Source of the DNA: Vibrio pelagius
Lineage (GTDB): Bacteria > Pseudomonadota > Gammaproteobacteria > Enterobacterales > Vibrionaceae
Direction of reading: 5' to 3'
Length of the DNA stretch: 64,000 bases
Assembly (NCBI RefSeq): GCF_024347575.1
Contig: NZ_AP025503.1
Coordinates: 2,604,001-2,668,000 of the forward strand
Below are positions 34,576 to 51,443 of the stretch, one piece after another. Positions within the stretch are counted from its first letter, which is position 1. Each line of letters starts with the position of its first letter. Position numbers and translations under genes: made by a program. The notes under the pieces were generated by a model. That model was not told the origin of the DNA and made no database searches. It saw nothing but the letters and a program-made list of their open reading frames with translations.

Positions 34576-35181
34576 ATGGACTCAATATCTAAGAGACCTA
34601 GAACTAGGCTTTCACCCCTAAAAAGAAAACTTCAATTGATGGAGATTGCACTTGAAGTATTCGCCCGCCGCGGCATTGGCCGAGGTGGACACGCAGATAT
34701 CGCAGACATTGCTCAAGTATCTGTCGCAACTGTATTTAACTACTTCCCAACGCGTGAAGATCTGGTCGACGAGGTTCTAAACCATGTTGTTCGTCAGTTC
34801 TCAAACTTTCTTTCAGACAATATTGACCTCGATATTCACGCTAAGCAGAACTTAACAAACATCACCAATGAGATGCTTACTCTTGTTGAGCAAGATTGTC
34901 ACTGGCTCAATGTTTGGTTCGAGTGGAGCGCGTCAACTCGTGATGAAGTATGGCCACTGTTCGTAACAACCAACCGCACTAACCAGATGCTGGTACAGAA
35001 CATGTTTGTTAAAGCGATCGAGCGTGGTGAAGTTTGCGACCAACATGAACCGAAACACTTGGCGAACCTATTCCACGGTATTTGCTACTCGCTGTTCATC
35101 CAAGCGAAGCGTGCAAACTCAACTGAAGAATTGCACTCATTGACTGACAGCTACTTAAATATGCTGTGTATTTATAAGTAG
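34576..35181 (+). CDS. hapR: Quorum-sensing master regulator (LuxR/HapR/OpaR family)
   Basis: 201 residues, TetR-type. The N-terminal arm KRPRTRLSPLKRK and the HTH (IADIAQVSVATVFNYFPTRE, about 43-62) are nearly invariant in the family, and the ligand-binding/dimer domain follows. It activates high-density genes such as proteases and represses early biofilm or virulence genes. The C-terminus stops at MLCIYK; from memory OpaR/SmcR-type relatives continue three or four residues further. The stop codon TAG shares its last base with the first heptamer of a tandem repeat, so repeat insertion may have set the end. Regulation: Qrr pairing site over the SD. Confidence 0.96.
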   Translation: MDSISKRPRTRLSPLKRKLQLMEIALEVFARRGIGRGGHADIADIAQVSVATVFNYFPTREDLVDEVLNHVVRQFSNFLSDNIDLDIHAKQNLTNITNEMLTLVEQDCHWLNVWFEWSASTRDEVWPLFVTTNRTNQMLVQNMFVKAIERGEVCDQHEPKHLANLFHGICYSLFIQAKRANSTEELHSLTDSYLNMLCIYK

Positions 35182-35244
35182 ATTCGAGATTCGAGATTCG
35201 AGATTCGAGATTCGAGATTCGAGATTCGAGATTCGAGATTCGAG
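35181..35244 (+). repeat. Heptamer tandem array (GATTCGA)x9
   Basis: Nine perfect units plus one base. The first G is the third base of the hapR stop TAG. The array is exactly 63 bases after the stop codon and in frame, ending at a TAA (35245-35247), so stop read-through would add 21 residues. A second array of the same unit is at 51018-51136. Confidence 0.98.
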
Positions 35245-35255
35245 TAAAACTATTG

Positions 35256-35286
35256 AAAGGGTTGGTGTTTGCGCCAACCCTTTTTT
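35256..35286 (+). terminator. Terminator of hapR (module copy 1)
   Basis: Stem AAAGGGTTGGTG (35256-35267) with CGCCAACCCTTT (35272-35283), loop TTTG, then T-run. Nearly identical to the terminator after yacG; all three stem differences keep pairing (C/U opposite G). Confidence 0.92.
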
Positions 35287-35314
35287 GTTACCAACAGATA
35301 GCTATTGGTTGAAA

Positions 35315-35355
35315 GAGATTCCCTACTCCTTCCTTCGTCAGTCTAGGGAATGACG
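35315..35355 (+). repeat. 41-bp palindromic repeat, copy A1
   Basis: Begins GAGATTCCCTA and ends TAGGGAATGACG, so the ends pair as ATTCCCTA/TAGGGAAT. Identical over at least 45 bases (with flanks) to copy A2 at 51206-51246, and about two-thirds identical to the inverted copies at 35506 and 51344. REP-like. A degenerate third relative may lie at 35412-35449. Confidence 0.9.
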
Positions 35356-35505
35356 GATATAAAGAACTCCTACACTTCACCATCGAAGAAATAAATCAAC
35401 CGTTCAAGCCAGAGATTACCTCTTCCCTCCCTCATCCAAGGGATAGTGAGCTGCAGCTCTTTCACACTAAAGAATCACTAAAGCACAAACTCCAACATCT
35501 CACTC

Positions 35506-35546
35506 CGTCATCTTCAAGAGCGAGGGACGAGCGAGTTGGGGATCTC
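35506..35546 (-). repeat. 41-bp palindromic repeat, copy C1 (inverted)
   Basis: On the minus strand it begins GAGATCCCCAACTCGCTCG and ends ATGACG, the same family as A1 but inverted, 150 bases away. It differs from C2 (51344-51384) at 4 of 41 positions. The outer bases of the palindrome are partly broken in this copy. Confidence 0.88.
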
Positions 35547-35578
35547 TTGCGGCCAAACGACTCGCTTACTCTAACGCA

Positions 35579-35608
35579 CAAAAAAGCCGCTGACGAATCA
35601 GCGGCTTT
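35579..35608 (-). terminator. Terminator of lpdA
   Basis: Stem AAAGCCGCTGA (35583-35593) with TCAGCGGCTTT (35598-35608), loop CGAA, followed on the minus strand by TTTTTTGTGCG. Together with the repeats above it accounts for the 457-base gap between hapR and lpdA; no gene is seen there. Confidence 0.92.
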
Positions 35609-35638
35609 CAAAAACATTAGCGAGTGGCTAAAGACGAA

Positions 35639-37069
35639 TTACTTCTTCTTTTTCACTGCTTTTTTGTTTGGAAGGTCAGTGATTGAGCCTTCAAATACTT
35701 CCGCAGCTAGACCAACAGACTCGTGTAGAGTTGGGTGAGCGTGGATAGTAAGAGCGATGTCTTCTGCGTCACAACCCATCTCGATTGCTAGGCCGATTTC
35801 ACCAAGAAGTTCACCACCGTTAGTACCTACGATAGCACCACCGATTACACGATGCGTATCTTTGTCGAAGATCATCTTCGTCATACCGTCTGCACAGTCA
35901 GATGCGATTGCACGACCAGAAGCTGCCCAAGGGAAAGTAGCAACTTCGTAGTTGATGCCTTCAGCTTTCGCTTCTTTCTCAGTCTTACCAACCCATGCTA
36001 CTTCTGGCTCAGTGTACGCAATTGATGGGATTACTTTAGGGTCGAAGTAGTGCTTCTTACCAGAGATAACTTCAGCCGCTACGTGACCTTCATGCACACC
36101 TTTGTGAGCAAGCATTGGTTGACCAACAACGTCACCGATCGCGTGGATGTGAGGAACGTTTGTACGCATTTGCTTATCAACGTTGATGAAACCACGTTCG
36201 TCAACTTCGATACCAGCTTTTTCAGCGTCGATAAGTGCGCCGTTTGGAACACGACCGATAGCAACAAGAACTGCATCGTAACGCTCAGCTTCAGCTGGTG
36301 CTTTCTTGCCTTCCATTGAAACGTAGATACCGTCTTCTTTCGCTTCAACTGCAGTCACTTTAGTTTCAAGCATTAGCTTGAACTTGTTCTTAATGCGCTT
36401 AGTGAATACTTTAACGATGTCTTTATCCGCAGCTGGGATAACTTGGTCGAACATCTCCACTACGTCTACTTTAGAACCTAGAGAGTGGTAAACCGTACCC
36501 ATTTCTAGACCGATGATACCACCACCCATGATAAGCAGTTTTTCTGGTACTTCTTTCAGCTCTAGCGCGTCAGTTGAATCCCAAATACGTGGGTCTTCAT
36601 GCGGGATGAATGGCAGTTTGATTGGGCGAGAACCCGCTGCAATGATAGCGTTGTCGAAGTTAACCGTTGTTGACTCGCCTTCACCTTCTACAAGGATAGA
36701 GTTAGGACCAGTGAACTTACCGTAGCCGTTAACTACAGTCACGTTACGCATCTTAGCCATACCGCCAAGACCGCCAGTCAGTTGGTTTACAACTTTCTCT
36801 TTCCAGATGCGGATCTTGCTGATGTCAGTTTGTGGCTCACCGAATACAACGCCGTGCTCAGCCATCGCTTTCGCTTCTTCAATTACTTTTGAAACGTGAA
36901 GAAGTGCTTTTGATGGAATACAACCAACGTTTAGACATACACCGCCAAGAGTGCTGTAACGTTCAACTAGTACTGTTTCTAGACCTAAATCCGCACAACG
37001 GAATGCAGCTGAGTAACCAGCAGGACCTGAACCAAGTACAACAACTTGGGCTTTAATTTCTTTGCTCAT
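35639..37069 (-). CDS. lpdA: Dihydrolipoamide dehydrogenase (E3)
   Basis: 476 residues. FAD-binding GSGPAGYSAA, redox-active Cys45 and Cys50 in GGVCLNVGCIPSK, the NAD motif GGGIIGLEMG and the catalytic HAHPTLHE near the C-terminus are intact. It reoxidises lipoyl groups of pyruvate and 2-oxoglutarate dehydrogenases and the glycine cleavage system. It lies about 240 bases after aceF with a hairpin between, so it can be transcribed both with and without aceEF. Confidence 0.97.
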   Translation of the reverse strand: MSKEIKAQVVVLGSGPAGYSAAFRCADLGLETVLVERYSTLGGVCLNVGCIPSKALLHVSKVIEEAKAMAEHGVVFGEPQTDISKIRIWKEKVVNQLTGGLGGMAKMRNVTVVNGYGKFTGPNSILVEGEGESTTVNFDNAIIAAGSRPIKLPFIPHEDPRIWDSTDALELKEVPEKLLIMGGGIIGLEMGTVYHSLGSKVDVVEMFDQVIPAADKDIVKVFTKRIKNKFKLMLETKVTAVEAKEDGIYVSMEGKKAPAEAERYDAVLVAIGRVPNGALIDAEKAGIEVDERGFINVDKQMRTNVPHIHAIGDVVGQPMLAHKGVHEGHVAAEVISGKKHYFDPKVIPSIAYTEPEVAWVGKTEKEAKAEGINYEVATFPWAASGRAIASDCADGMTKMIFDKDTHRVIGGAIVGTNGGELLGEIGLAIEMGCDAEDIALTIHAHPTLHESVGLAAEVFEGSITDLPNKKAVKKKK

Positions 37070-37267
37070 TGTGACCTCTTGTAGTCATTATCCCTAACAG
37101 GCTTGAGAAGATGTTCTTAAATTATTGGGCTTTCAAACAGCCAACATTTTACAGAGATGTTAACAGTGTGAAAGTAGCTTTAAGTTAGCCTGTGAGCTAG
37201 ACAACACTTCCCTTTCGCTTTATGAGAAAAGCGGGAACTGTTCTCTAAAAAATACTTTGTATAAAGA

Positions 37268-37295
37268 ATTAAGGTGACCCGAAAGCCACCTTAAT
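37268..37295 (-). terminator. Hairpin after aceF
   Basis: Nine-base stem ATTAAGGTG (37268-37276) with CACCTTAAT (37287-37295) and a 10-base loop, just after the aceF stop on the minus strand. The U-tract is poor, so it may only partly terminate before lpdA. Confidence 0.6.
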
Positions 37296-37309
37296 ATTCA
37301 CTTTCTAAA

Positions 37310-39217
37310 TTACAGTACTAGACGACGAATGTCAGATAGTGCGCTGTTTAGGAAAGTAATGAAGCGTGCACCTTCAGCACCATCGATCACACGGTGGTCG
37401 TATGATAGAGATAGTGGAAGTTGTAGGCGTGGTTCGAACTCTTTGCCGTTCCACACAGGCTTCATTTCAGACTTAGATACACCAAGGATACCTACTTCTG
37501 GAGCGTTTACGATTGGCGTAAATGCAGTACCGCCGATGCCGCCAAGGCTAGAGATTGTGAAACAACCGCCTTGCATGTCAGCTGCAGTTAGCTTACCAGC
37601 ACGTGCTTTCTTAGACACAGCCATTAGCTCTTCAGATAGCTCGTAGATGCCTTTCTTGTTCACGTCTTTGAATACAGGAACAACTAGACCGTTAGGCGTA
37701 TCTACTGCGATACCTACGTTTACGTACTTCTTAAGAATGATGCTTTCGCCATCTTCAGAAAGAGAAGAGTTAAACGCTGGGAACGCTTCTAGCGCTTTAG
37801 CAACAGCTTTCATGATGAACACAAGTGGAGTGATCTTCATGCCAGTGTCTTTCTTAGCTTCGATTGCGTTCTGCTCTTTACGGAATGCTTCTAGCTCAGT
37901 GATGTCTGCGTTGTCCCACTGTGTAACGTGAGGGATCATTACCCAGTTACGGTGTAGGTTTGCACCAGAGATCTTCTTGATCTTAGAAAGCTTCTGAACT
38001 TCAGTTTCGCCGAACTTGCTGAAGTCAACTTTTGGCCAAGGTAGAAGACCAAGAGCAGAGCCGTCACCGCCTTTGCCAGATGCCGCAGCACCAGACTCAA
38101 GACGCTTAAGTGCATCTTTAACGTAAGACTGAACGTCTTCTTTAAGGATACGGCTCTTACGACCAGTACCTTTAACCTTAGATAGGTTAACGCCAAATTC
38201 ACGAGCAAGACGACGAACAACAGGAGACGCGTGTGCGTAATCGTTGTTTTCTTGGAAGTCGTTCGCTGCAGGTGCCGCTTCAGCTTTTGCTGCTGGAGCA
38301 GGAGCCGCCGCAGGTGCTGGAACTGCTGCTTGTGCAGGTGCTGCAACAGGAGCAGGCGCTGCGCCTTCAACAACGAAAGTCATGATTAGAGAACCAGTCG
38401 TTACTTTGTCGCCAGCTGCAATCTTGATCTCTTTTACCGTACCAGCAAATGGAGCCGGAACTTCCATTGAAGCTTTGTCGCCTTCGACAGTGATTAGAGA
38501 TTGCTCTTCTTCTACTGTGTCGCCAACCGCTACCATTACTTCAGTAACTTCTACTTCGTCACCGCCGATATCAGGAACGTTTACTTCTTTTTCGGCTGCG
38601 GCCGGCGCTCCGGATGCCGCAGGAGCTGCTGCAGGAGCCGCTTCAACTGCAGGAGCAGCTGCTACTGGAGCGCCAGAACCTGCTACTTCGAATACCATCA
38701 CTAGAGAACCAGTTGATACTGAGTCTCCAGAAGCGATCTTGATTTCTTTAACTGTACCAGCGAATGGTGCCGGAACTTCCATTGATGCTTTGTCGCCTTC
38801 AACAGTTAGAAGAGATTGCTCTTCTTCTACTGCATCGCCAACTGCAACCATGATTTCAGTCACTTCTACTTCGTCGCCACCGATATCTGGAACATGAACT
38901 TCTTTAAGCTCTGCTGCTGCAGGAGCTGCAACTGGTGCTGCTTCAACTGCTGGAGCTGCCGTAGGAGCCGCTTCTACAGCGGCACCTTCAGCTTCGAAAA
39001 TCATGATTAGAGAACCAGTTGTTACTGAATCACCTTCAGAAACTTTGATCTCTTTTACGATACCCGCTTGAGACGCAGGAACTTCCATTGAAGCCTTGTC
39101 GCCTTCAACAGTGATCAGTGACTGTTCTTCTTCAACCTTGTCGCCAACGTTTACTAGAATCTCAGTTACTTCAACCTCATCAGCACCGATGTCAGGTACG
39201 TTAATTTCGATTGCCAT
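37310..39217 (-). CDS. aceF: Pyruvate dehydrogenase E2, dihydrolipoamide acetyltransferase
   Basis: 635 residues with three tandem lipoyl domains; the lipoylated lysines (GDKAS) are Lys41, Lys143 and Lys248. Ala/Pro-rich linkers separate them, then an E3/E1-binding domain (about 325-365) and the catalytic acetyltransferase domain with His608 and Asp612 in DHRVIDG. It forms the cubic core of the complex and transfers acetyl to CoA. The three lipoyl repeats are close copies at DNA level. It starts 12 bases after aceE. Confidence 0.97.
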
Positions 39218-39229
39218 TGTTTTTCTACC

Positions 39230-41893
39230 TTATGCGTATTGCGGGTTTGTTTTTTCTGTATCGATGTTGAACTTAGCAATTGCTTCTGTAACAACAGACT
39301 TCTCAACATCACCACGTTTAGCTAGCTCAGTTAGGGCAGCAACTACTACGTAGCCTGCGTTAACTTCGAAGTGACGACGTAGGTTTTCACGGCTGTCAGA
39401 GCGGCCGTAACCGTCTGTACCAAGTACTTTGTAAGACTCAGTTGGCATGAACGCACGTACTTGCTCAGCGTAGTTCTTCATGTAGTCAGTCGCAGCGATT
39501 GCTGGTTCGTTACCAAGAACTTGAGCGATGTAAGGTACTTTCGCTTCGCCTTCTGGGTGAAGCATGTTATAGCGCTCTACATCTTGACCGTTACGAGTTA
39601 GTTCGTTGAACGATGTTACAGAGAACACATCAGACGCGATACCGTACTCTTCGCTTAGGATAGTCGCAGCTTTACGTACTTCGTTCATGATAGTACCAGA
39701 GCTCATTAGTTGAACTTTAGACTTGTCACCAGCGTAAGACTCAAGCTTGTAGATACCTTTACGGATGCCTTCTTCAGCACCTTCTGGCATTGCTGGCATT
39801 GCGTAGTTTTCGTTCATTACTGTTAGGTAGTAGAACACGTTCTCTTGCTCAGAACCGTACATGCGACGGATACCGTCTTGCATGATAACTGCAACTTCGT
39901 AAGCGAATGTTGGGTCGTAAGAGATACAGTTAGGAACAGTGTTCGCTAGTACGTGCGAGTGACCATCTTCGTGCTGTAGACCTTCACCGTTAAGCGTAGT
40001 ACGACCAGCAGTAGCACCTAGTAGGAAACCACGAGCTTGTTGGTCACCAGCCATCCATGCCATATCGCCAACACGTTGGAAACCGAACATAGAGTAGTAG
40101 ATGTAGAACGGGATCATTGGCAGATCGTTTGTGCTGTAAGAAGTCGCAGCAGCAACCCAAGATGCCATTGAACCTAGTTCGTTGATACCTTCTTGCAGTA
40201 CCTGACCTGAAGTCGCTTCTTTGTAGTAAGAAACGATGTCGCGATCTTGAGGCGTGTAGTTCTGACCGTGCGGGTTGTAGATACCGATTTGACGGAACAG
40301 ACCTTCCATACCGAACGTACGTGCTTCGTCACAGATAATAGGAACAACGTTTTTACCGATGCCTTTATTCTTCAGAAGGATGTTTAGTGTACGTACGTAT
40401 GCCATCGTAGTAGAGATTTCACGCTTCTGTTCGCTTAGTAGCGGTGCAAACTCTTCTAGTTCTGGGATTTGTAGTTCTTGAGTGAACTTAGGTAGACGCT
40501 GTGGCGTGTAACCTTTTAGTTCTTTACGACGAGCGTGTAGGTATTCGTACTCCGCTGAACCTTCTTCAAGTTTCAGGTACGGAAGCTCTTTCACTGCTTC
40601 GTCAGTTAGGATGTCTTGAAGACCTAGACGATCACGTAGGTGTAGAACGTGAGTCATATCCATCTTCTTAACTTGGTGCGCGATGTTCTTACCTTCAGCC
40701 GCTTCACCCATGCCGTAACCTTTAACAGTCTTAGCTAGGATTACTGTTGGACGACCTTTAGTTTCTGCCGCGTTTTTGTAAGCTGCGTATAGCTTAGAAG
40801 ACTCGTGACCACCACGCTTAAGAGCGAAGATTTCGTCGTCAGTCATGTCTGCAACTAGTGCAGCTGTCTCTGGGTACTTACCAAAGAAGTGCTCACGTAC
40901 GTACGCGCCATCTTTAGATTTGAATGTTTGGTAGTCGCCATCTACAGTTTCGTTCATTAGCTGTAGTAGTTTACCAGACGTATCTTTAGCAAGTAGTGAA
41001 TCCCAGTTGCTACCCCAGATAACTTTAACAACGTTCCAACCAGCACCTTTGAATAGGCCTTCTAGTTCTTGGATGATGCTACCGTTACCCATTACAGGGC
41101 CGTCTAGACGCTGTAGGTTACAGTTGATTAGGAATGTTAGGTTGTCTAGCTTTTCACGTGCTGCGAAAGATAGAGAACCACGTGATTCTGGCTCATCCAT
41201 CTCACCGTCGCCTAGGAAAGCGTATACACGTTGAGCAGAAGTATCTTTAAGACCACGACCTTCTAGGTACTTAAGGAAACGCGCTTGGTAGATCGCAGAG
41301 ATTGGACCAAGACCCATAGATACCGTTGGGAACTGCCAGAACTCAGGCATTAGTTTAGGGTGCGGGTATGAAGGGATACCTTTACCATCAACTTCTTGAC
41401 GGAAGTTATCTAGCTGCTCTTCAGTTAGACGACCTTCAACGAATGCACGAGAGTAGATACCTGGAGAGATGTGACCTTGGTAGTAAACTAGATCGCCACC
41501 GTCCGTCTCGTTTGGAGCACGGAAGAAGTGGTTGAAACATACTTCGTAGAAAGCAGCCGCTGATTGGTAAGAAGCCATGTGACCACCTAGGTCTAGGTCT
41601 TTCTTAGAAGCGCGCAATACGATCATGATTGCGTTCCAGCGAATAATCGAACGAATACGACGCTCAAGAGTTACGTCACCAGGGTAAGCCGGCTCTTGTG
41701 CTGCTGGAATGGTGTTGATGTAGTTAGTGTTGATACCCGTTGGCATATCAACGCCGTCTAAACGTGCCTTTTCTAGAACTGTTTCTAGTAAGAACTGTGC
41801 ACGTTCTACACCTTCTTCACGTACTACTGACTCAAGAGCTTGTAACCAATCTTGAGTTTCCAGAGCATCAACGTCATGCTTCATGTCAGACAT
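39230..41893 (-). CDS. aceE: Pyruvate dehydrogenase E1 component
   Basis: 887 residues, homodimeric E1 type. The thiamine diphosphate/Mg motif GDGEMDEP...NCN is present, as are HEDGHSHV and the C-terminal transketolase-like domain. It decarboxylates pyruvate and acetylates the E2 lipoyl arms. SD AAGGA is nine bases before the ATG. Situated 56 bases after pdhR and upstream of aceF in one operon. Confidence 0.98.
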   Translation of the reverse strand: MSDMKHDVDALETQDWLQALESVVREEGVERAQFLLETVLEKARLDGVDMPTGINTNYINTIPAAQEPAYPGDVTLERRIRSIIRWNAIMIVLRASKKDLDLGGHMASYQSAAAFYEVCFNHFFRAPNETDGGDLVYYQGHISPGIYSRAFVEGRLTEEQLDNFRQEVDGKGIPSYPHPKLMPEFWQFPTVSMGLGPISAIYQARFLKYLEGRGLKDTSAQRVYAFLGDGEMDEPESRGSLSFAAREKLDNLTFLINCNLQRLDGPVMGNGSIIQELEGLFKGAGWNVVKVIWGSNWDSLLAKDTSGKLLQLMNETVDGDYQTFKSKDGAYVREHFFGKYPETAALVADMTDDEIFALKRGGHESSKLYAAYKNAAETKGRPTVILAKTVKGYGMGEAAEGKNIAHQVKKMDMTHVLHLRDRLGLQDILTDEAVKELPYLKLEEGSAEYEYLHARRKELKGYTPQRLPKFTQELQIPELEEFAPLLSEQKREISTTMAYVRTLNILLKNKGIGKNVVPIICDEARTFGMEGLFRQIGIYNPHGQNYTPQDRDIVSYYKEATSGQVLQEGINELGSMASWVAAATSYSTNDLPMIPFYIYYSMFGFQRVGDMAWMAGDQQARGFLLGATAGRTTLNGEGLQHEDGHSHVLANTVPNCISYDPTFAYEVAVIMQDGIRRMYGSEQENVFYYLTVMNENYAMPAMPEGAEEGIRKGIYKLESYAGDKSKVQLMSSGTIMNEVRKAATILSEEYGIASDVFSVTSFNELTRNGQDVERYNMLHPEGEAKVPYIAQVLGNEPAIAATDYMKNYAEQVRAFMPTESYKVLGTDGYGRSDSRENLRRHFEVNAGYVVVAALTELAKRGDVEKSVVTEAIAKFNIDTEKTNPQYA

Positions 41894-41949
41894 GGCGATC
41901 TATCCTTTTTGTTAGTTGGATTCTACTAAACACGTAAAAAGCCGTAGGA

Positions 41950-42717
41950 TTACGACTCTTTACCCTGTTGAATTCGACGCAGTGAACGTTCGCGACGCGA
42001 CTCTTCTCTGGTCAAATCCAGCAATGTTTCTTCGATGTAAGCTAAATGAGAATGTGACATTTCACGCGCCTTTTCAGGCTGACCAGAAACAATCGCATCC
42101 ACGATGTTAGCTCGATGTATACTCACTTTTTCCACAACGTCTTTTCGACGATGCAACAGCTTTAGATTTTCTAAGACATTTTGCTCAAGTAACGGAGCTA
42201 AACTGCGAACGATATGCAAAAGCACGACGTTATGAGCCGCTTCCGTTAAAGCGATAAGGAAAGCCATCACAGCTGCAGATTCAGCTTCAATATCGGTCTT
42301 TTCTTGCGCACCTCGAATGTTATCTAGGCATGCTTGAATTCGAGCAAAGTCTTCTTCAGTACCACGCAACGCAGCAAAATAAGCAGAAATTCCCTCCATC
42401 GCATGACGCGATTCCAACAAGTCTAGTTGGGTTTCGGAGTGAGTGGACAACAAATTCAGGAGCGGATCTGAAAAGCTTTTCCAGATATTTTCACTGACGA
42501 ACGTTCCCCCACCTTGACGGCGAGTAAGCAAGCGCTTGGCTTCTAAACGTTGTATCGCTTCTCGGATCGAAGGACGAGACACATCGAACTGTTTAGCCAG
42601 TTCACGCTCTGGCGGCAGTTGCTGCCCGGGCGCCAGTGTTCCTTCCACAATCAACCTTTCTAACTCTTTTTCAATGACATCTGAGAGTTTTGGCTGACGA
42701 ATCCTTTGATAAGCCAT
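41950..42717 (-). CDS. pdhR: Pyruvate-responsive repressor PdhR (GntR/FadR family)
   Basis: 255 residues. Winged-helix GntR domain at 10-75 ([25 protein letters not shown]) and a C-terminal FCD effector domain. In the family pyruvate releases the protein from DNA, inducing pdhR-aceEF-lpd. A perfect PdhR-type operator lies 31 bases upstream of its start, so autoregulation is expected. Confidence 0.95.
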
Positions 42718-42747
42718 AGTTTGCTGTTCTTCTTTTTATGTGCTGGT

Positions 42748-42764
42748 AATTGGTAATACCAATT
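42748..42764. promoter_or_regulatory. PdhR operator 1
   Basis: AATTGGTAATACCAATT is a perfect inverted repeat matching ATTGGT-N3-ACCAAT. It sits in the pdhR promoter region. Confidence 0.88.
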
Positions 42765-42885
42765 TTGATTGGTGCAGAAATTAACATAATTAAAACGCCA
42801 CTGTCCAGCTCAAAATTGACCTGAATCATAGAACGCAGCATGAATTAACCATGATTTAACAAATGAAATTTAAAACAGCAACTAA

Positions 42886-42900
42886 ATTGGTCTTACCATT
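42886..42900. promoter_or_regulatory. PdhR operator 2 (candidate)
   Basis: ATTGGTCTTACCATT matches the same operator at 11 of 12 half-site bases, 138 bases upstream of operator 1. The rest of the 447-base gap to ampD (42718-43164) is A/T rich and shows only a weak hairpin near 43084-43119 that could end the ampD transcript; no gene is seen. Confidence 0.62.
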
Positions 42901-43164
42901 TACAGCGTTAATACTATTGGGGAGTGCCCGTGCTAGAAAGTTTCAGGATAAAAATGAAATATTTCAGATTGATTAGGCTCTCTTGGTTAAAATTCAAACC
43001 AAGCGCACAGATTGAGAATAAATCCTATTAATAATTGTTCACATCTGGCCTTTTGAAAGATCCATCACACTCTTGAGGCGATAAAAAGGGCCTGCACCCA
43101 GAACAGTTACAAGCCCTTAACATCGGTGTAAAACCAATATGCCAATATAGGATTATCAGAATAG

Positions 43165-43722
43165 CTACAGAGTTAGGCGTTGACGGTACTTCACCCAATC
43201 AAAGGAGAGCCCCGGATCCGTTTTTCTTAATGGAGCGATGTATTGATGTCCTGTAATACGTTCTGCCGTGATCTGCGGAAAACGTTGGGTAATCGCATCG
43301 GTCAACTCTGCTAGTGCACGGTATTGCGATTCGCTGTAGGCGACAAAATCCGTCCCCTCTAGCTCAATGCCAATAGAATAATCATTGCAACGCTCTCGCC
43401 CAGCAAAGCTCGACTTCCCCGCATGCCAAGCACGGTCAAGGAAAGAGACAAACTGCACAATCTCCCCGCTTCTACGAATCAAACAGTGCGCAGACACGCC
43501 CATATTGTGAATGACTTTAAAAAAGGGGTGCTCCTCTGGATTGAGCTGACCAGTAAAAAACTGCTCAATATAAGGACCACCAAACTGTCCAGGTGGCAGG
43601 CTGATGTTATGTACCACCAGCAAAGAGACATCGTCTTGCTGAGGGCGAGCGTCATAGAAAGGGGACGGTAGATGTTTCGCGGCGCTATACCACCCAGTTT
43701 CGCTGATCATCATAAACGCCAT
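43165..43722 (-). CDS. ampD: 1,6-anhydro-N-acetylmuramyl-L-alanine amidase AmpD
   Basis: 185 residues, amidase_2 fold. Zinc ligands His38, His159 and Asp169 and the general base Glu120 are in place (VVHNISLP, ELEGTDF, GHQY...KTDPG). It cleaves anhydro-muropeptides in the cytoplasm for cell-wall recycling, which also keeps AmpR-controlled beta-lactamase low. Divergent from nadC with about 137 bases between. Met4 or Met5 are alternative starts. Confidence 0.95.
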   Translation of the reverse strand: MAFMMISETGWYSAAKHLPSPFYDARPQQDDVSLLVVHNISLPPGQFGGPYIEQFFTGQLNPEEHPFFKVIHNMGVSAHCLIRRSGEIVQFVSFLDRAWHAGKSSFAGRERCNDYSIGIELEGTDFVAYSESQYRALAELTDAITQRFPQITAERITGHQYIAPLRKTDPGLSFDWVKYRQRLTL

Positions 43723-43811
43723 ACTCCTTACTCTTATTGCTCAATATATAATGACTATTCGTGTGAGCTCGACCTAACTCAAGGCGGGCTCAACTCTTTA
43801 ATTTGCAGTGA

Positions 43812-44750
<939 letters not shown>

Positions 44751-44778
44751 TCTATTGATTAAAAACACATTTGATATC

Positions 44779-44807
44779 AAAGGCACCCTTTCCTACGGTG
44801 CCTTTTT
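44779..44807 (+). terminator. Terminator of nadC
   Basis: Stem AAAGGCACC (44779-44787) with GGTGCCTTT (44797-44805), then TT. It isolates nadC from pilA. Confidence 0.88.
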
Positions 44808-45002
44808 CATGTCTAGAACGTCACTAATGAGACATCTTATCTAACTTGATCGCATAATGTTATGCAGTATATGAAACAGGTTACTAATAAATTCAAAGCG
44901 ACTCGCGCCCTTATCTGAACACCATTCCACACAAGATTACCGACTCTTATTCTAAATCCACCAAGTGCTTGCACTGTAACCAACAACAAATGGATTAGAA
45001 CA

Positions 45003-45455
45003 ATGAAAACAAGACAAACAAAGCAAAAAGGCTTTACGTTAATTGAATTGATGATTGTAGTGGCGATTATTGGGATTCTATCGGCTTTTGCTGTACCTGC
45101 TTATCAAAACTATACAATGAGAGCCCACGCCAGTGATATGTTGAATGCATCATCAGCCATGAAAACAGCTGTTGGCCTTTGTCTATCGGACAGCATTTCA
45201 GCAGGAAGTTGCACATCCGGGAAAAGCGGCGTACCAAATAAACAAATATTCTCAGGCTTTGAGGTTTTAGCAAAATTAAGTGGTGCTGCAACTGTCGTTG
45301 AATCTGCAGTGTCGGGAAGCAAAGGGTCGTTGCCAACATCAGCCAAAATAACGTTAACCTCCAGCAAAGATACAAGTGGAATTAGTTGGACTGTCAAATG
45401 TTCAGATACCGACAATAACGTGAATGCGTCCGACTGGTGTCCAGTTAAACAATGA
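45003..45455 (+). CDS. pilA: Type IVa major pilin PilA
   Basis: 150 residues. Prepilin leader [10 protein letters not shown] is cleaved before Phe1 of [19 protein letters not shown], and Glu5 is present. The C-terminal disulfide loop is bounded by KCSDTD and DWCPVKQ, and a second Cys pair lies at about residues 60-70. It is polymerised by PilB for adhesion, chitin colonisation and DNA uptake. The globular part is Ser/Thr rich and likely strain-variable. The 252 bases upstream contain AGTGC-TT-GCACT (44964-44975), a possible operator. The stop overlaps pilB. Confidence 0.94.
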
Positions 45456-47137
45456 TAACCAACCTACCCACCGTTCTGCGTCAGGCTAACTTACTTAGCC
45501 TGGCTCAAGAACAAATCGTAGTGGAACACTTACAAGCTTCTGGTGGGTCAACACCGGAAGCTTTAATCACACATGGCTTGTTCAGTGCCGATAGCCTTGC
45601 CGAACAGACCGCACACCTCTTTGGCTTACCGTTAATATCACTCACTGATTACGACTATGAACCTCTGTGTGAACAGCTTGGGCTACGCGAACTCATCACT
45701 CAACACCGAGTCATACCGATCGCTAAATCAGCCTCTACGCTTACCTTGGCTTCTTCTGACCCAACCGACCTGTATGCTGAAGATGATTTTCGTTTTGCCA
45801 CTGGACTGCAAATTGACTCAGTAGTTGCAAACTATCGTACTCTTGAAAGCGCAATTCGGCGACTTTATGGCAAAGCAATTACCAATGGTGATAGCAATCG
45901 CAAAGAGATAACCCAAGACGAACTCGCCCATTTGGTGGAGGTTTCTGATGATGAAGTCAGTACCGTCGAAGATCTTAGCCAAGATGACTCGCCCGTCAGC
46001 CGCTTCATCAATCAAATCCTAGTCGATGCGGTACGTAAAGGCGCATCAGATATCCATTTCGAACCTTATGAGGAGTACTACCGAGTCCGCCTACGTTGCG
46101 ATGGCATCTTAATCGAAACCCAACAACCGGCAGCACATCTTAGTCGGAGACTATCAGCACGTTTAAAGATCATTGCTAAGCTTGATATTGCGGAGCGCCG
46201 TTTGCCTCAAGATGGTCGAATTAAGCTGAGGCTCAATCAAGAGATCGCCATCGATATGCGTGTCTCTACTCTGCCGACACTTTGGGGAGAGAAGATTGTA
46301 TTGCGTCTGCTCGATAGCAGTGCAGCCAACCTTGATATTGACACTCTTGGCTACAGTGAACAGCAGAAATTACTTTATCTCAACGCGCTAAAACGTCCAC
46401 AAGGCATGATTCTTATGACGGGCCCAACCGGTAGCGGTAAAACCGTCTCTCTTTATACAGGGCTTCGCATCCTCAACACCTCAGAAAGAAACATCTCTAC
46501 CGCTGAAGATCCTGTAGAGATTAACCTTTGTGGCGTCAATCAAGTCCAGGTTCAACCCAAAATAGGCTTTGGCTTTGCTGAAGCGCTGCGATCTTTTCTG
46601 CGCCAAGATCCAGATATCGTGATGGTCGGTGAAATACGCGATATTGAAACCGCTGAAATTGCGATAAAAGCCTCCCAAACCGGCCACTTGGTACTCTCGA
46701 CACTGCACACTAACTCAGCTGCAGAAACAGTCACACGCCTTGCACATATGGGGATTGAACCTTTTAACTTGGCTTCATCATTGAGCCTCATCATTGCTCA
46801 ACGTCTCGCAAGGCGACTATGCCCACATTGCAAAATTAGAGACGATGACCAAACCATTTATCACCGTCATGCCATTGATGCTAACCACACGTTTTTTAAA
46901 GCGAATCCGAACGGCTGCAATGAGTGCAATCAAGGTTATGCCGGCCGTGTGGGTATCTATGAAGTGATGCCGTTTACTGACAAGCTCAAAGCCAGTCTCA
47001 TCTCCCGCCCAAACGCGATCGAGATAGAAACTCTCGCTAAACAAGAAGGTATGCAGACTCTCCGAGACTCTGGTTTAGAGAAGCTGCTATTGGGTGTAAC
47101 AAGCTACCAAGAGCTACAGCGTGTCCTTTATATCTAG
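45452..47137 (+). CDS. pilB: Type IV pilus assembly ATPase PilB
   Basis: 561 residues. N-terminal GSPII_E domains, Walker A GPTGSGKT at 324-331, Asp box and Walker B (MVGEIRD), His box (STLHTN), and a zinc motif starting at Cys457-Cys460 (CPHC) and closed by CNEC. It powers pilus extension. ATGA overlap with pilA. Confidence 0.96.
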
Positions 47138-47184
47138 ATGCGCCTTTTATTATCTCCCCCTCGACCAACAACGGTGTGAAATTT

Positions 47185-48414
47185 ATGGCAATCAAACCTA
47201 AACAATCACAACTCAAGAATTATCACTGGAGAGGCATTAACAGCTCGGGAAAGAGAGTGTCAGGGCAAACCTTGGCTCTTACTGAGCTAGAAGTCAGAGA
47301 CAAGCTTCGCGAACAGCATATTCAGATCAAGAAGATAAAGAAAAAAAGTATCTCCGCGCTCACTCGCCTAACGAATCAGGTCAAAGCAAAAGACATCACC
47401 CTGTTAACACGCCAGTTAGCAACCATGTTAGGAACCGGAGTCCCAATCATCCAAGCGATAAAACTGGTGTCAGATAACCATAGAAAAGCTGAGATGAAAT
47501 CGATTTTGTCGCAGATACGCAAAGGCGTTGAAGCTGGAACCCCTTTATCAAAAGCGATGAGAACCGCAAGCCGCCATTTTGATGACTTGTATACCGACCT
47601 TGTCGCAACCGGAGAGCTGTCTGGAAACCTCGCAGAAGTATTTGAACGACTGGCGACCTACCGAGAAAAGAGCGCGCAGCTCAAATCAAAAGTGGTTAAA
47701 GCGCTGATTTACCCTGTGATGGTAGTCATGACAGCCTTATTGGTTTCCTATTTGATGCTAACTAAAGTGATCCCAGAGTTCGAGTCCATGTTTTCAGGAT
47801 TTGGTGCTGACTTGCCTTGGTTTACAGCTAAAGTCATGGAACTGTCTCACTGGATGCAGGCCTACGGCTTCTATACCTTTGTTGGTTTGGGTGCAGCAAC
47901 TCTACTCTTCATCCAGGCCCGTAAACGCTCTTATGCCATTCGGCTTGCCACTAGCCGCATTGGCTTACGCATGCCCATTATCGGAGGTGTAGTCGCCAAG
48001 GCTTCAATAGCCAAATTCAGCCGCACGTTGTCAACCAGCTTCAGTTCTGGGATACCGATCCTGACAAGTCTTAGAACGACAGCCAAAACGACAGGTAACG
48101 TACACTTTGAATCCGCGATTACGGAAGTCCACAAAGAGACAGCGGCAGGAATGCCAATGTATATTGCGATGCGCAATAGCCAAGCCTTCCCTGAAATGGT
48201 ACTGCAGATGGTGATGATAGGCGAAGAGTCTGGCAACCTTGATGATATGCTCAATAAAGTGGCGACGATCTATGAATTTGAGGTCGACAACACCGTCGAT
48301 AATCTGGGCAAGATCTTAGAACCACTGATCATCCTTTTTCTGGGATCTGTTGTAGGGAGCTTAGTGGTTGCGATGTACTTACCGATCTTTAACTTAATGA
48401 GTGTGTTAGGATAG
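47185..48414 (+). CDS. pilC: Type IV pilus inner-membrane platform protein PilC
   Basis: 409 residues from the ATG at 47185. A GTG nine bases upstream (47176) is also possible. Two homologous T2SSF domains (about 65-190 and 270-395) with three membrane segments and the conserved MxxxGxxSGNL repeats ([15 protein letters not shown]). It anchors PilB and pilin subunits in the inner membrane. Follows pilB after about 47 bases. Confidence 0.94.
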
Positions 48415-48476
48415 GCGACAATCAATGACAACACACTCATGGCTCTCGCCAGTTAGACCCCAGTGGACAGGACACT

Positions 48477-49346
48477 ATGGAAGTATTTCACTACTATCCT
48501 TGGCTATTCCCCGTATTAGCTTTTATCTTCAGCCTACTTATCGGTAGTTTTCTCAACGTCGTTATCCATCGTTTGCCAATTATGATGCAACGAGAATGGC
48601 AGCAAGAGTGCTCTGAAAGCTTCCCTGATTACAAGATTCCGATGCCAAAGGGGACATACAACCTCAGCGTACCCCGTTCAACCTGCCCGAAATGTGAAAC
48701 GCAGATTCGAGTCATCGATAATATTCCAGTATTCAGTTGGTTGGTTTTGAAAGGCAAATGTCGACAGTGTTCGAATCCTATCAGCCCTCGCTACCCTTTG
48801 GTTGAGCTACTCACTGCGGTGATGTGTAGCTTCGTTGCGGCGCATTTTGGTTTCGGTTACTACACAATCGCACTGATCTTTTTTACCTTTGCCTTAATAT
48901 CAGCGACCTTCATCGACCTCGATACCATGCTACTGCCCGATCAAATCACGCTACCATTGGTCTGGTCAGGTATTGCGCTTGCGCTGTTTGGCATCAGCCC
49001 TATCACCCTTCAAGACTCAGTCATAGGAGCAATGGCTGGCTACTTAGCGCTATGGTCAGTCTACTGGCTATTCAAACTCCTAACGGGCAAAGAGGGCATG
49101 GGCTATGGTGATTTCAAACTTCTTGCCGCATTAGGGGCTTGGCTTGGTTGGCAACACCTACCCATGATCATCTTGCTCTCTTCGCTGGTTGGCCTCGTGT
49201 TTGGCTTAATTCAGCTGCGATTGAAACAGCAAGGCATCGACAAAGCCTTCCCTTTTGGTCCTTATCTCGCCATTGCCGGTTGGATCAGTCTAATTTGGGG
49301 CGAGAACATTATGGCTTGGTATTTTACTTCGGTTTTAGGAATTTAA
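48477..49346 (+). CDS. pilD: Prepilin peptidase / N-methyltransferase PilD
   Basis: 289 residues, polytopic. Cytoplasmic zinc loop with CPKC and CRQC at about 64-102, and the aspartic protease residues in [11 protein letters not shown] and GYGDFK. It cleaves and methylates type IV prepilins and type II secretion pseudopilins, so it serves both systems. Ends five bases before coaE. Confidence 0.96.
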
Positions 49347-49350
49347 TTTT

Positions 49351-49959
49351 ATGGCTACCATTATTGGTCTCACTGGCGGTATTGCTAGCGGAAAGACCAC
49401 CGTTGCTGACCTGTTTCAAAAGCACTTCAACATCGATATTGTCGATGCCGATATCGTAGCACGTGAAGTCGTTGCGCTAGGCAGCGACGGATTACGTCAG
49501 ATCACTGAACATTTTGGCGAAGCAATCCTTTTAGAAGACGGGACCCTCAACCGAGCGAAACTTCGTAAGCAGATCTTCAGTCACCCAGAAGACAAAGCTT
49601 GGTTGAATGCGCTGCTTCATCCAATGATTCGTAATAAGATTGAACAAGAGCTGACAAACATTCGCTCTCCCTATGGTTTACTCGTTGCACCTTTACTGAT
49701 TGAAAACCAGATGCAAGGTATGGCAGATCGCGTTTTAGTTATTGATGTTCCTAAAGAAGTTCAGATTCAACGCACCATGAACCGAGACAATGTCTCTGAA
49801 GAACAGGTCAACGCGATCCTCAAATCACAAGCTTCACGAGAACAGCGTTTAGCGGTTGCGGACGACGTGATTAAAAACCATACTAAAAACCAAGATCTTT
49901 TGCCTCAAATCACAGATTTACATCAAAAGTATCTAGCAATAAGCACGCAAGATCGGTAA
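49351..49959 (+). CDS. coaE: Dephospho-CoA kinase
   Basis: 202 residues. P-loop GGIASGKTT at 9-17 and the CoA-binding DADIVARE follow the family. It makes the last step of CoA synthesis. Translationally close to pilD (four-base gap) and followed by zapD and yacG, the order also found in enterics. Confidence 0.96.
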   Translation: MATIIGLTGGIASGKTTVADLFQKHFNIDIVDADIVAREVVALGSDGLRQITEHFGEAILLEDGTLNRAKLRKQIFSHPEDKAWLNALLHPMIRNKIEQELTNIRSPYGLLVAPLLIENQMQGMADRVLVIDVPKEVQIQRTMNRDNVSEEQVNAILKSQASREQRLAVADDVIKNHTKNQDLLPQITDLHQKYLAISTQDR

Positions 49960-49991
49960 AAATAGTCTTATGTTGAATGAAGGTTTGCTTG

Positions 49992-50732
49992 ATGATCACT
50001 CATAAATTTGAACATCCTCTAAATGAGAAAACACGTATCTACTTAAGAGTGGAATCCCTCTTGAGGCAGCTGCACCTGTCTTCAACATTTTCAGATGCTC
50101 AACAGTACCAATTGTTCTTTCGTTCAATCTTCGATCTGATTGAGATCTTTGAACAAATTCAACTAAAGAGTGAACTGGCAAAAGACATTGAGAAGCAGCG
50201 TGTCACGTACAAGAGCTGGCTCAATGTCGAAGGCGTCGATCAGGAGATGCTCACTTCACTGCTAGAAGACATCAGCAACATCTACCGTGAGCTAATGCTG
50301 GCTGAACGCTTTGGTCAGTCTCTGAAAGAAGATCGCTTCCTAAGTGCTATTCGTCAGCGTTTCAACCTACCCGGTGGCTCATGTTGCTTTGATCTACCGG
50401 CTCTGCACTATTGGCTGCATCTTCCTCTTGATAAGAGAATGAATGATGCTAAAGCTTGGATGGATAGCTTACAACCTCTGTATGACGCCCTAAACCTATG
50501 GTTAAAGTTAACTCGCGAAACGGGGCACTTCCAACCGCAAATCGCTCGTGCGGGCTTCTTTCAAAGCGATGCGGAAGAGGCGAACATCTTACGCCTCTCA
50601 ATTCCAATGCAGTATGGCGCTTACCCAATGATTTCAGGACACAAAAACCGCTTTGCCGTGAAGTTTATGTGCTTTGAAAGCGGTCAGGCGTGCACTCAAG
50701 ATATCGAATTTGAATTAGCTGTCTGCAGCTAG
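49992..50732 (+). CDS. zapD: Cell division protein ZapD
   Basis: 246 residues from the ATG at 49992, with GAAGG nine bases upstream; the frame to 49977 adds five residues that are not part of the family start [13 protein letters not shown]. Mostly alpha-helical with a C-terminal beta domain. It bundles FtsZ filaments at the Z ring. Between coaE and yacG as in E. coli. Confidence 0.94.
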
Positions 50733-50819
50733 CTTATTTGTCGCTAAATACCTTATTAAAGTTGGCTTGAGCCATGCTCAGGCCTACAATTCTAGAACCA
50801 CACCCAACTAAGAACCATT

Positions 50820-51017
50820 ATGTCTAAGAAAATCACCATCGTTAAATGCCCACAATGTCAGACTGATGTTGAGTGGGGTGAGCAGAGTCCACATCGCCCT
50901 TTCTGTAGCAAACAGTGTCAGATGATTGATTTTGGTGAGTGGGCCGACGAAGAGAACAGTATCGCGGGTGCTCCCGATATGTCGGACAGTGATGGTTGGT
51001 CGGAAGATCAGTACTAA
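50820..51017 (+). CDS. yacG: Zinc protein YacG, DNA gyrase inhibitor
   Basis: 65 residues. Four zinc cysteines CPQC (11-14) and CSKQC (30-34), then an acidic flexible tail ([10 protein letters not shown]...). In E. coli it binds GyrB and blocks DNA binding. The stop codon is immediately followed by a heptamer repeat array. Confidence 0.93.
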
Positions 51018-51136
51018 GTTCGAGATTCGAGATTCGAGATTCGAGATTCGAGATTCGAGATTCGAGATTCGAGATTCGAGATTCGAGATTCGAGATTCGA
51101 GATTCGAGATTCGAGATTCGAGATTCGAGATTCGAG
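51018..51136 (+). repeat. Heptamer tandem array (GATTCGA)x16
   Basis: Sixteen perfect units (51024-51135) plus a leading degenerate unit GTTCGA lacking one A and a trailing G. It begins at the base after the yacG TAA. Same unit and same orientation as the array after hapR, but longer. Confidence 0.98.
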
Positions 51137-51146
51137 AAGAATTATT

Positions 51147-51177
51147 AAAGGGTTGGCGTTTGCGTCAATCCTTTTTT
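51147..51177 (+). terminator. Terminator of yacG (module copy 2)
   Basis: Stem AAAGGGTTGGCG (51147-51158) with CGTCAATCCTTT (51163-51174), loop TTTG, then T-run. Differs from the hapR terminator only by pairing-neutral changes in the stem. Confidence 0.9.
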
Positions 51178-51205
51178 ATTGCCGATTGTTTGGTGTTTGC
51201 CAAAA

Positions 51206-51246
51206 GAGATTCCCTACTCCTTCCTTCGTCAGTCTAGGGAATGACG
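51206..51246 (+). repeat. 41-bp palindromic repeat, copy A2
   Basis: Identical in all 41 bases to A1 (35315-35355), including immediate flanks AAA and G. Ends pair as ATTCCCTA/TAGGGAAT. Confidence 0.92.
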
Positions 51247-51343
51247 GTTATTCCGGGCTTTAAAATTAAGTTCATCACTGCCGCCTTAAGCGTAGCCTAT
51301 TTACAATAAACACCCACCATCCTACTACGTAATGTTATCTATT

Positions 51344-51384
51344 CGTCATCCCCAAGAGTGAGGAACGAGCGAGTTGGGGATCTC
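51344..51384 (-). repeat. 41-bp palindromic repeat, copy C2 (inverted)
   Basis: Inverted relative to A2 and 97 bases from it. On the minus strand GATCCCCAA at one end pairs with TTGGGGATG at the other, a better palindrome than C1. The sequence between A2 and C2 is unlike that between A1 and C1. The gap yacG-rplS (448 bases) has no gene. Confidence 0.9.
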
Positions 51385-51413
51385 TTGCTTTCGAAACTCT
51401 AAATAACGCGCAC

Positions 51414-51443
51414 AAAAAAGCGGAGCCAAATGGCTCCGCTTTT
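51414..51443 (-). terminator. Terminator of the rpsP-rplS operon
   Basis: Stem AAAAGCGGAGCCA (51416-51428) with TGGCTCCGCTTTT (51431-51443), followed on the minus strand by TTTTTTGTGCG. Confidence 0.92.

Follow-up and report, generated by a model that had tools for sequence, protein, structure and literature searches.

Heptamer arrays, terminators and CGTC-tagged REP-like hairpins at the 3' ends of hapR and yacG in Vibrio pelagius

We analyzed a window of 64,000 nt from Vibrio pelagius contig NZ_AP025503.1, in which the gaps downstream of hapR and yacG carry the same succession of parts: a tandem array of the heptamer GATTCGA, an intrinsic terminator and two elements resembling repetitive extragenic palindromes (REPs). 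The two stretches are probably mosaic 3' ends whose three parts, namely the heptamer array, the terminator and the REP-like pair, evolve separately. According to NCBIfam, the four flanking genes encode HapR, dihydrolipoyl dehydrogenase, YacG and L19. The features are as follows, in window numbering.

34576..35181, + strand: hapR, LuxR/HapR/OpaR quorum-sensing regulator (NF040929, above cut-off); its TAG stop overlaps the array
35180..35244, + strand: (GATTCGA)n array at hapR, 9.3 units, starting inside the stop codon
about 35256..35286, + strand: hapR intrinsic terminator, GGGTTGG stem and T-run
35315..35355, - strand: CGTC-tagged REP-like element A of the hapR/lpdA gap
35506..35546, + strand: CGTC-tagged REP-like element C of the hapR/lpdA gap, head-to-head with A
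35580..35608, - strand: terminator of the convergent gene lpdA, outside any module
50820..51017, + strand: yacG, DNA gyrase inhibitor YacG (NCBIfam name)
51019..51137, + strand: (GATTCGA)n array at yacG, 17 units, 1 nt past the TAA stop
about 51147..51177, + strand: yacG intrinsic terminator
51206..51246, - strand: CGTC-tagged REP-like element A of the yacG/rplS gap, same sequence as the hapR copy
51344..51384, + strand: CGTC-tagged REP-like element C of the yacG/rplS gap, head-to-head with A
51414..51443, - strand: terminator of the convergent gene rplS, outside any module

A previous sequence-only reading had described both gaps as copies of one composite module. Direct reading and measurement bear out the common order (GATTCGA array, terminator, A on the minus strand, C on the plus strand), the identity of the two A copies (41/41 nt) and the A-C spacers of 150 nt (hapR/lpdA) and 97 nt (yacG/rplS). 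The terminators, called near-identical, do have similar stems, but the terminator together with the spacer up to REP A is just 71% identical. A and C are both present, not as two separate palindromes but as members of a single degenerate family in opposite orientations, and each is really an 8-bp stem with a loop of 18-19 nt. The shared ACAAAAAAGC also occurs in both gaps; it only opens the terminators that belong to the partner genes lpdA and rplS, the stems of which differ, and is no part of a module.

Heptamer arrays and their position at stop codons

A pattern of two heptamer units had 63 matches in the genome and its reversed control had one. These matches correspond to eight GATTCGA loci, every one on contig 1, and at seven of them the array is anchored at a stop codon (hapR, yacG, hemW, argS, lnt, a yjeT-like gene and a type II secretion system [T2SS] pilotin gene). 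The names yjeT-like, malT-like and dnaK/dnaJ were taken from a reading of the translations, without a search. The seven anchored arrays start at most 2 nt from the stop codon, which two of them overlap, and finish ahead of a terminator. At an assumed rate of 1%, the binomial probability of seven or more of eight loci lying at stops is 8e-14.

Arrays of at least three GATTCGA units were found at 73 places in 37 of 227 Vibrio genomes, counting the genome of the window, while the reversed control gave six; the pattern misses an array end if the base four positions past its final unit is a T. Analysis of all 66 foreign places and of our own loci yielded 76 arrays of at least two units in the 37 genomes. 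The stops of eight genes precede 58 of these arrays, which hold 3-33 units; 56 of the 58 begin at -2 to +5 nt relative to the stop, and the two outliers lie 11 and 18 nt from it. Those not assigned to a gene stop (18 of 76) comprise arrays in the dnaK-dnaJ gap, at contig ends, second halves of arrays split by an insertion sequence (IS) and others. The same 58 of 76 are period-7, sense-strand arrays within 50 bp of a stop, as in the Rehm-type definition of heptameric simple sequence repeats. No G-tracts able to form quadruplexes occur in these arrays, as GATTCGA contains no GG.

We also considered that GATTCGA might be a genome-wide single-copy motif after stops, and rejected this. The GATTCGAGA pattern had 116 matches, about 46 of them outside arrays (hand count), with 55 for the reversed control. 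A 464-kb sample of the V. pelagius sequence has 268 free 3' ends; GATTCGA followed the stop at one of them, that of hapR with its array, and no period-7 run of at least 19 nt was present other than the two in the window.

Other tandem repeats were seen among the fetched loci. An 8-bp array (AGCTCTCC) is present in two genomes, with 11 copies at L074:217-305 and 19 copies at L122:150-305, on the same fetched stretches as GATTCGA arrays of the dnaK-dnaJ type. At the Vibrio locus L042, several different heptamer arrays share a stretch of about 2 kb; their units are AGCATCT, CGAATCT with a gradual passage to CGAACCT, TAAACCT and CTTGAAC.

A scan of genomes from 84,980 species returned 76 stretches, 43 of them outside Vibrio (sorted by title). 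Among 46 non-Vibrio arrays, 16 start at most 14 nt past the stop of a same-strand open reading frame (ORF), and none starts that close behind an ORF of the opposite strand. Overlap with a called ORF is seen for 29 of the 46, including 9 of the 16 near stops (hand count). Three units of GAGNNNC were found in 28 of 369 gammaproteobacterial genomes against 18 for the reversed control (hand count), so the class-wide signal is modest. We did not retain class-wide specificity of such arrays, given this weak excess over the control and mixed positions in 30 loci. One distant gammaproteobacterium (G350) has CGAGNNN heptads with variable NNN at 152 places. A sample of 30 loci from it held 26 distinct arrays, of which 12 overlap a called ORF and only some start right after a stop. 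Several of the heptad places form inverted pairs within about 130 bp; L414, L416 and L392 are examples of loci from this genome.

Alleles and downstream segments at the same gene ends

The same gene ends were compared in relatives using 50 hapR loci (the 30 best matches and 20 further ones) and the 30 best loci each for yacG and hemW; exact units were recounted and the remaining alleles sorted by eye. At hapR, 15 loci carry at least three exact units. Of the 35 array-poor loci, 23 retain a single unit, two units or degenerate ones at the site, and 12 have no unit at the stop. The yacG loci comprise 12 with at least three GATTCGA units, one cut by a contig end, seven with one or a partial unit, one without any, and nine with another repeat, namely GGTTCGA, GAATAGC (three loci, one with just 2 units), GAGTAGC (two), GAGTAAC (two) and an 8-mer. 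At hemW, 10 loci have at least three units, 15 have fewer or degenerate units, and 5 are a short form that lacks both the array and the GGGTTGG terminator. Position and period are therefore constant while unit number and sequence change.

Orthologous loci free of the module, which the sequence-only reading proposed to look for, do exist: genome G123 has nothing comparable at either hapR or yacG, and its yacG is followed by no unit and by a different terminator. The usual array-poor allele of hapR is, on the contrary, a short form in place. In another Vibrio clade (three genomes), GGGAAAC or GAGAGAC arrays follow the hapR terminator, as judged by eye. At L289, L290, L292 and L293 (hapR of G108, G148, G073 and G027), GGGAAAC/GAGAGAC heptamers lie directly past the terminator, with 2 units only at L292 and with the contig terminating inside the array at L289.

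Downstream of the arrays, we compared the 105 nt from the terminator through REP A and, separately, the 57 nt ahead of REP A. The 105-nt segment of yacG is 82% identical to that of hapR in the same genome, compared with 67% for hemW and 57% for hapR of G052, a genome with 97% identity to V. pelagius in the HapR protein. Some relatives have other sequence downstream of the hapR stop; among 31 other hapR segments, 6 are at least 86% and 25 at most 71% identical to ours. These distinct segments at one gene indicate that blocks were exchanged or replaced. The yacG-type terminator pattern was present in 25 of the 26 readable, uninterrupted yacG loci, G123 being the exception. REP A and the terminator stem account for most of the likeness between hapR and yacG, and copying was rejected as its chief cause, as the 82% falls to 71% once REP A is removed. 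Since much of the 82% is REP A, copying of a segment between the two genes, which lie 16 kb apart, is offered as no more than a possibility; it may have proceeded from yacG to hapR.

The REP-like family and an insertion sequence found in the arrays

Elements A and C belong to one dispersed family of CGTC-tagged REP-like elements, the stem of which is kept by covariation. A pattern allowing up to 3 mismatches had 24 matches in the genome and none for the reversed control, and a covariance model recovered at least 92, a lower bound as 150 of 1806 first-look candidates were scored. In an alignment of 23 members, 98.4% of the cells in the 8-bp stem are paired and 26 are double-changed, compared with 16-57% pairing in slid controls. 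The first stem pairs are A-U in 21 of 23 and U-A in 23 of 23 sequences, and the 5' tag is CGTC in 19, TGTC in 3 and AGCC in 1, most members having been found with a pattern starting with CGTC. On contig 1, 79 of 88 elements have a neighbor within 220 bp, paired or in clusters, with 28 head-to-head (CGTC ends facing), 19 tail-to-tail and 5 head-to-tail (tandem) arrangements. Clusters of 5-10 elements, mostly of alternating orientation, lie at G000:C1:106451-107318, 266272-266585, 671931-672434 and 1283246-1283800. The RAYT transposase domain Y1_Tnp (PF01797) had no match in the V. pelagius genome, while the control search matched 5 of 14 named genomes; a RAYT-driven origin, as for GTAG REPs and REPINs, was rejected on the basis of this one genome.

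An IS3-family element, measuring 1252 bp where both ends were recovered, splits or truncates six of the arrays at the fetched loci. Its OrfB passes the cut-offs of PF00665, PF13683, PF13276 and PF13333 and has the rve DDE-type integrase core; a second, OrfA-like frame has 110 residues. In the three genomes where the element had been seen, copies were listed by their exact 26-nt left end. This element prefers heptamer arrays in the three genomes: judged by their flanks, 16 of 21 copies are inside heptamer arrays of four different units or border on them, 3 are beside degenerate heptamers and 2 elsewhere, and once the six copies that had led to the choice of genomes are removed, 10 of 15 are inside or bordering on arrays. 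Among the 12 copies with both ends recovered, seven have a 4-bp direct repeat, which is GATN in six array copies and GGAC at one site outside arrays. The array copies are found at the following loci.

Genome G039: L418, L421, L424, L427, L429, L433 and L438
Genome G053: L422, L428, L430, L432, L434 and L436
Genome G139: L420, L423 and L426

A search of plasmids gave no near-identical copy; one plasmid of Vibrio harveyi carries a 75.7% relative, annotated as IS3 family, that is not inside a heptamer array, and 31 relatives occur on viral contigs.

Explanations and known systems

In the reading that we consider probable, the first part is a sense-strand heptamer array anchored at the stop codon, which may grow and shrink by replication slippage from any heptamer abutting a stop. 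Loops of 7 nt exceed the size that mismatch repair can see, and the untranslated stretch between stop and terminator presumably tolerates changes in length; the anchor might reflect mutation at boundaries or mere tolerance. The second part is the gene's own intrinsic terminator and the third a head-to-head pair of hairpins drawn from the dispersed CGTC-tagged family. A segment may have been copied between hapR and yacG by recombination within the shared arrays. The arrays would not transport the surrounding DNA, but in some relatives the IS3-family element inserts into them.

Several observations weigh against this reading. The eighth GATTCGA array lies in the dnaK-dnaJ gap and not at a stop. 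GGTTG-stem terminators follow 5 of the 7 stop-anchored arrays and match once more in the 464-kb sample; the array could thus form a unit with the terminator. The presence of GATTCGA at eight unrelated genes, with a CGAR core in most units, is not predicted by purely local slippage. With 12 of 50 hapR loci devoid of any unit at the stop, a whole block could have been gained in one clade. Eight units of GATTCGA (-20.5 kcal/mol, z -0.06) or GGTTCGA (-28.3 kcal/mol, z -6.85) fold into long hairpins, and some units could therefore act in RNA. Finally, in the 57 nt before REP A, yacG is 71%, hemW 65% and G052 hapR 62% identical to our hapR, which speaks weakly for copying.

A rather unlikely alternative, which would be the cause underlying the slippage, is that ending transcription or translation itself makes 7-bp duplications at stops and terminators, for example because purine-rich untranslated RNA forms R-loops or because replication forks stall where a polymerase terminates. 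It would suit the arrays with GATACGA, GATGCGA, GATGCTA and GGGAAAC units that begin 0-22 nt past the T-run of terminator-like sequences. For the first three units, this set consists of two GATACGA arrays in V. pelagius and eight arrays beside ISs in relatives and is not a random sample, because most were found through the IS; one GATGCTA array starts 11 nt past a stop. In these arrays, the GA-rich strand has the sense orientation with respect to the gene upstream. Furthermore, 1.48 Mb of Vibrio loci contain 15 unit types of period 7, against 5 for periods 5, 6 and 8 together and no type with a period of 9, a count biased by the choice of most loci for their heptamers. DNA beyond a terminator is, however, expected to be little transcribed.

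The arrays might instead be selected as spacers or RNA elements that part the end of translation from termination, guard the 3' end or serve as a binding site for a protein or an RNase. We find this improbable. Their strict position and strand, the placement of the non-Vibrio arrays past same-strand stops and the hairpin potential of the GATTCGA and GGTTCGA units would fit such a role, but unit sequence and number are variable and short alleles are common in close relatives. Over eight units, GATACGA does not fold at all (0 kcal/mol) and GAGTAAC and GAGTAGC fold weakly, and an RNA fold common to all units was rejected.

As for the non-autonomous mobile module inserting at 3' ends, its parts are separable and vary independently, which makes it unlikely. 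The location at 3' ends, the blockwise presence and absence (G123 lacks the block after both hapR and yacG, and 5 of 30 genomes lack it after hemW), the recurring GGTTG terminators and the common order of array, terminator and inverted REP-like pair at hapR, yacG, hemW and argS all agree with it. Against it, the components occur apart. Many copies were indeed found in the genome, but as at least 92 REP-like elements against 8 GATTCGA loci, and three of the stop-anchored arrays, those of lnt, the pilotin gene and the yjeT-like gene, stand without a REP-like match nearby. The unit differs among species at yacG, an array stands after the terminator at C1:2304023, and no Y1 transposase was found in the V. 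pelagius genome. Convergent genes, proposed as the target, are not needed either, as the argS and dnaK-dnaJ arrays sit between same-strand ORFs.

Beyond the mosaic reading, we suggest tentatively, and with more doubt than confidence, that vibrios and possibly many bacteria repeatedly build 7-bp arrays precisely at the ends of translation and transcription units, replacing the unit while keeping position, strand and period, and that an IS3-family element may have become a specialist for these arrays, which would offer it a safe place to insert. The differences between orthologous arrays make boundary mutation and selection testable against each other.

Heptamer arrays of this kind have precedents. 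GGGAATC heptameric repeats are described from Xanthomonas, where they lie near stop codons, and from Nostoc, with no clear function, and an over-representation of heptamers in bacteria has been noted and left unexplained (PMC4692102). The kind is therefore already known from the stops of Xanthomonas. The same text states that no other gammaproteobacteria were identified with its G-rich repeats. The Vibrio arrays differ in their unit without a G-tract, their few loci, their anchor at -2 to +5 nt and the switching of the unit between species at one site. Differences in unit number and sequence with a constant stop anchor, in the absence of G-tracts, weaken an explanation by quadruplexes only. 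Like the TAACTGA repeats of Beggiatoaceae (PMC4679880), the Vibrio arrays are intergenic heptamer direct repeats with a wide, patchy spread, but those repeats are mostly just upstream of starts and ours are downstream of stops. The literature searched, including PMC2700814 and PMC3265528 and with subscription journals mostly outside it, gave no description of GATTCGA arrays or of a heptamer-targeting IS in Vibrio. Nor did that literature show the GATTCGA type without G-tracts, the tight anchor, a unit that switches at one site or the preference of the IS for arrays.

The REP-like family resembles the CGTC-tagged REPs, which have a stem of 8-9 bp whose first two pairs are AT, a loop of 4-5 nt and mostly head-to-head dimers, tail-to-tail ones being rare (PMC3733652). 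Both share the terminal CGTC, an 8-bp stem opening with A-T and T-A pairs, dimers with facing heads, a location at 3' ends and the lack of a dedicated transposase. The Vibrio family differs in its loop of 18-19 nt, its tail (CTC versus CCA) and its common tail-to-tail pairs, and its host genus is not named in the main text of PMC3733652. Given the long loop, these elements sit and look like a CGTC REP and fall outside its four families.

Insertion sequences that target REPs are also on record, and ISPpu9 is reportedly one of them. The element found here is like IS1397, an IS3-family insertion sequence that targets a dispersed intergenic repeat, the REP (PMC1525189). Unlike in the REP-targeting ISs, the target is a heptameric tandem array rather than a palindrome, and a preference for heptamer arrays would extend the range of targets in this group by a new kind.

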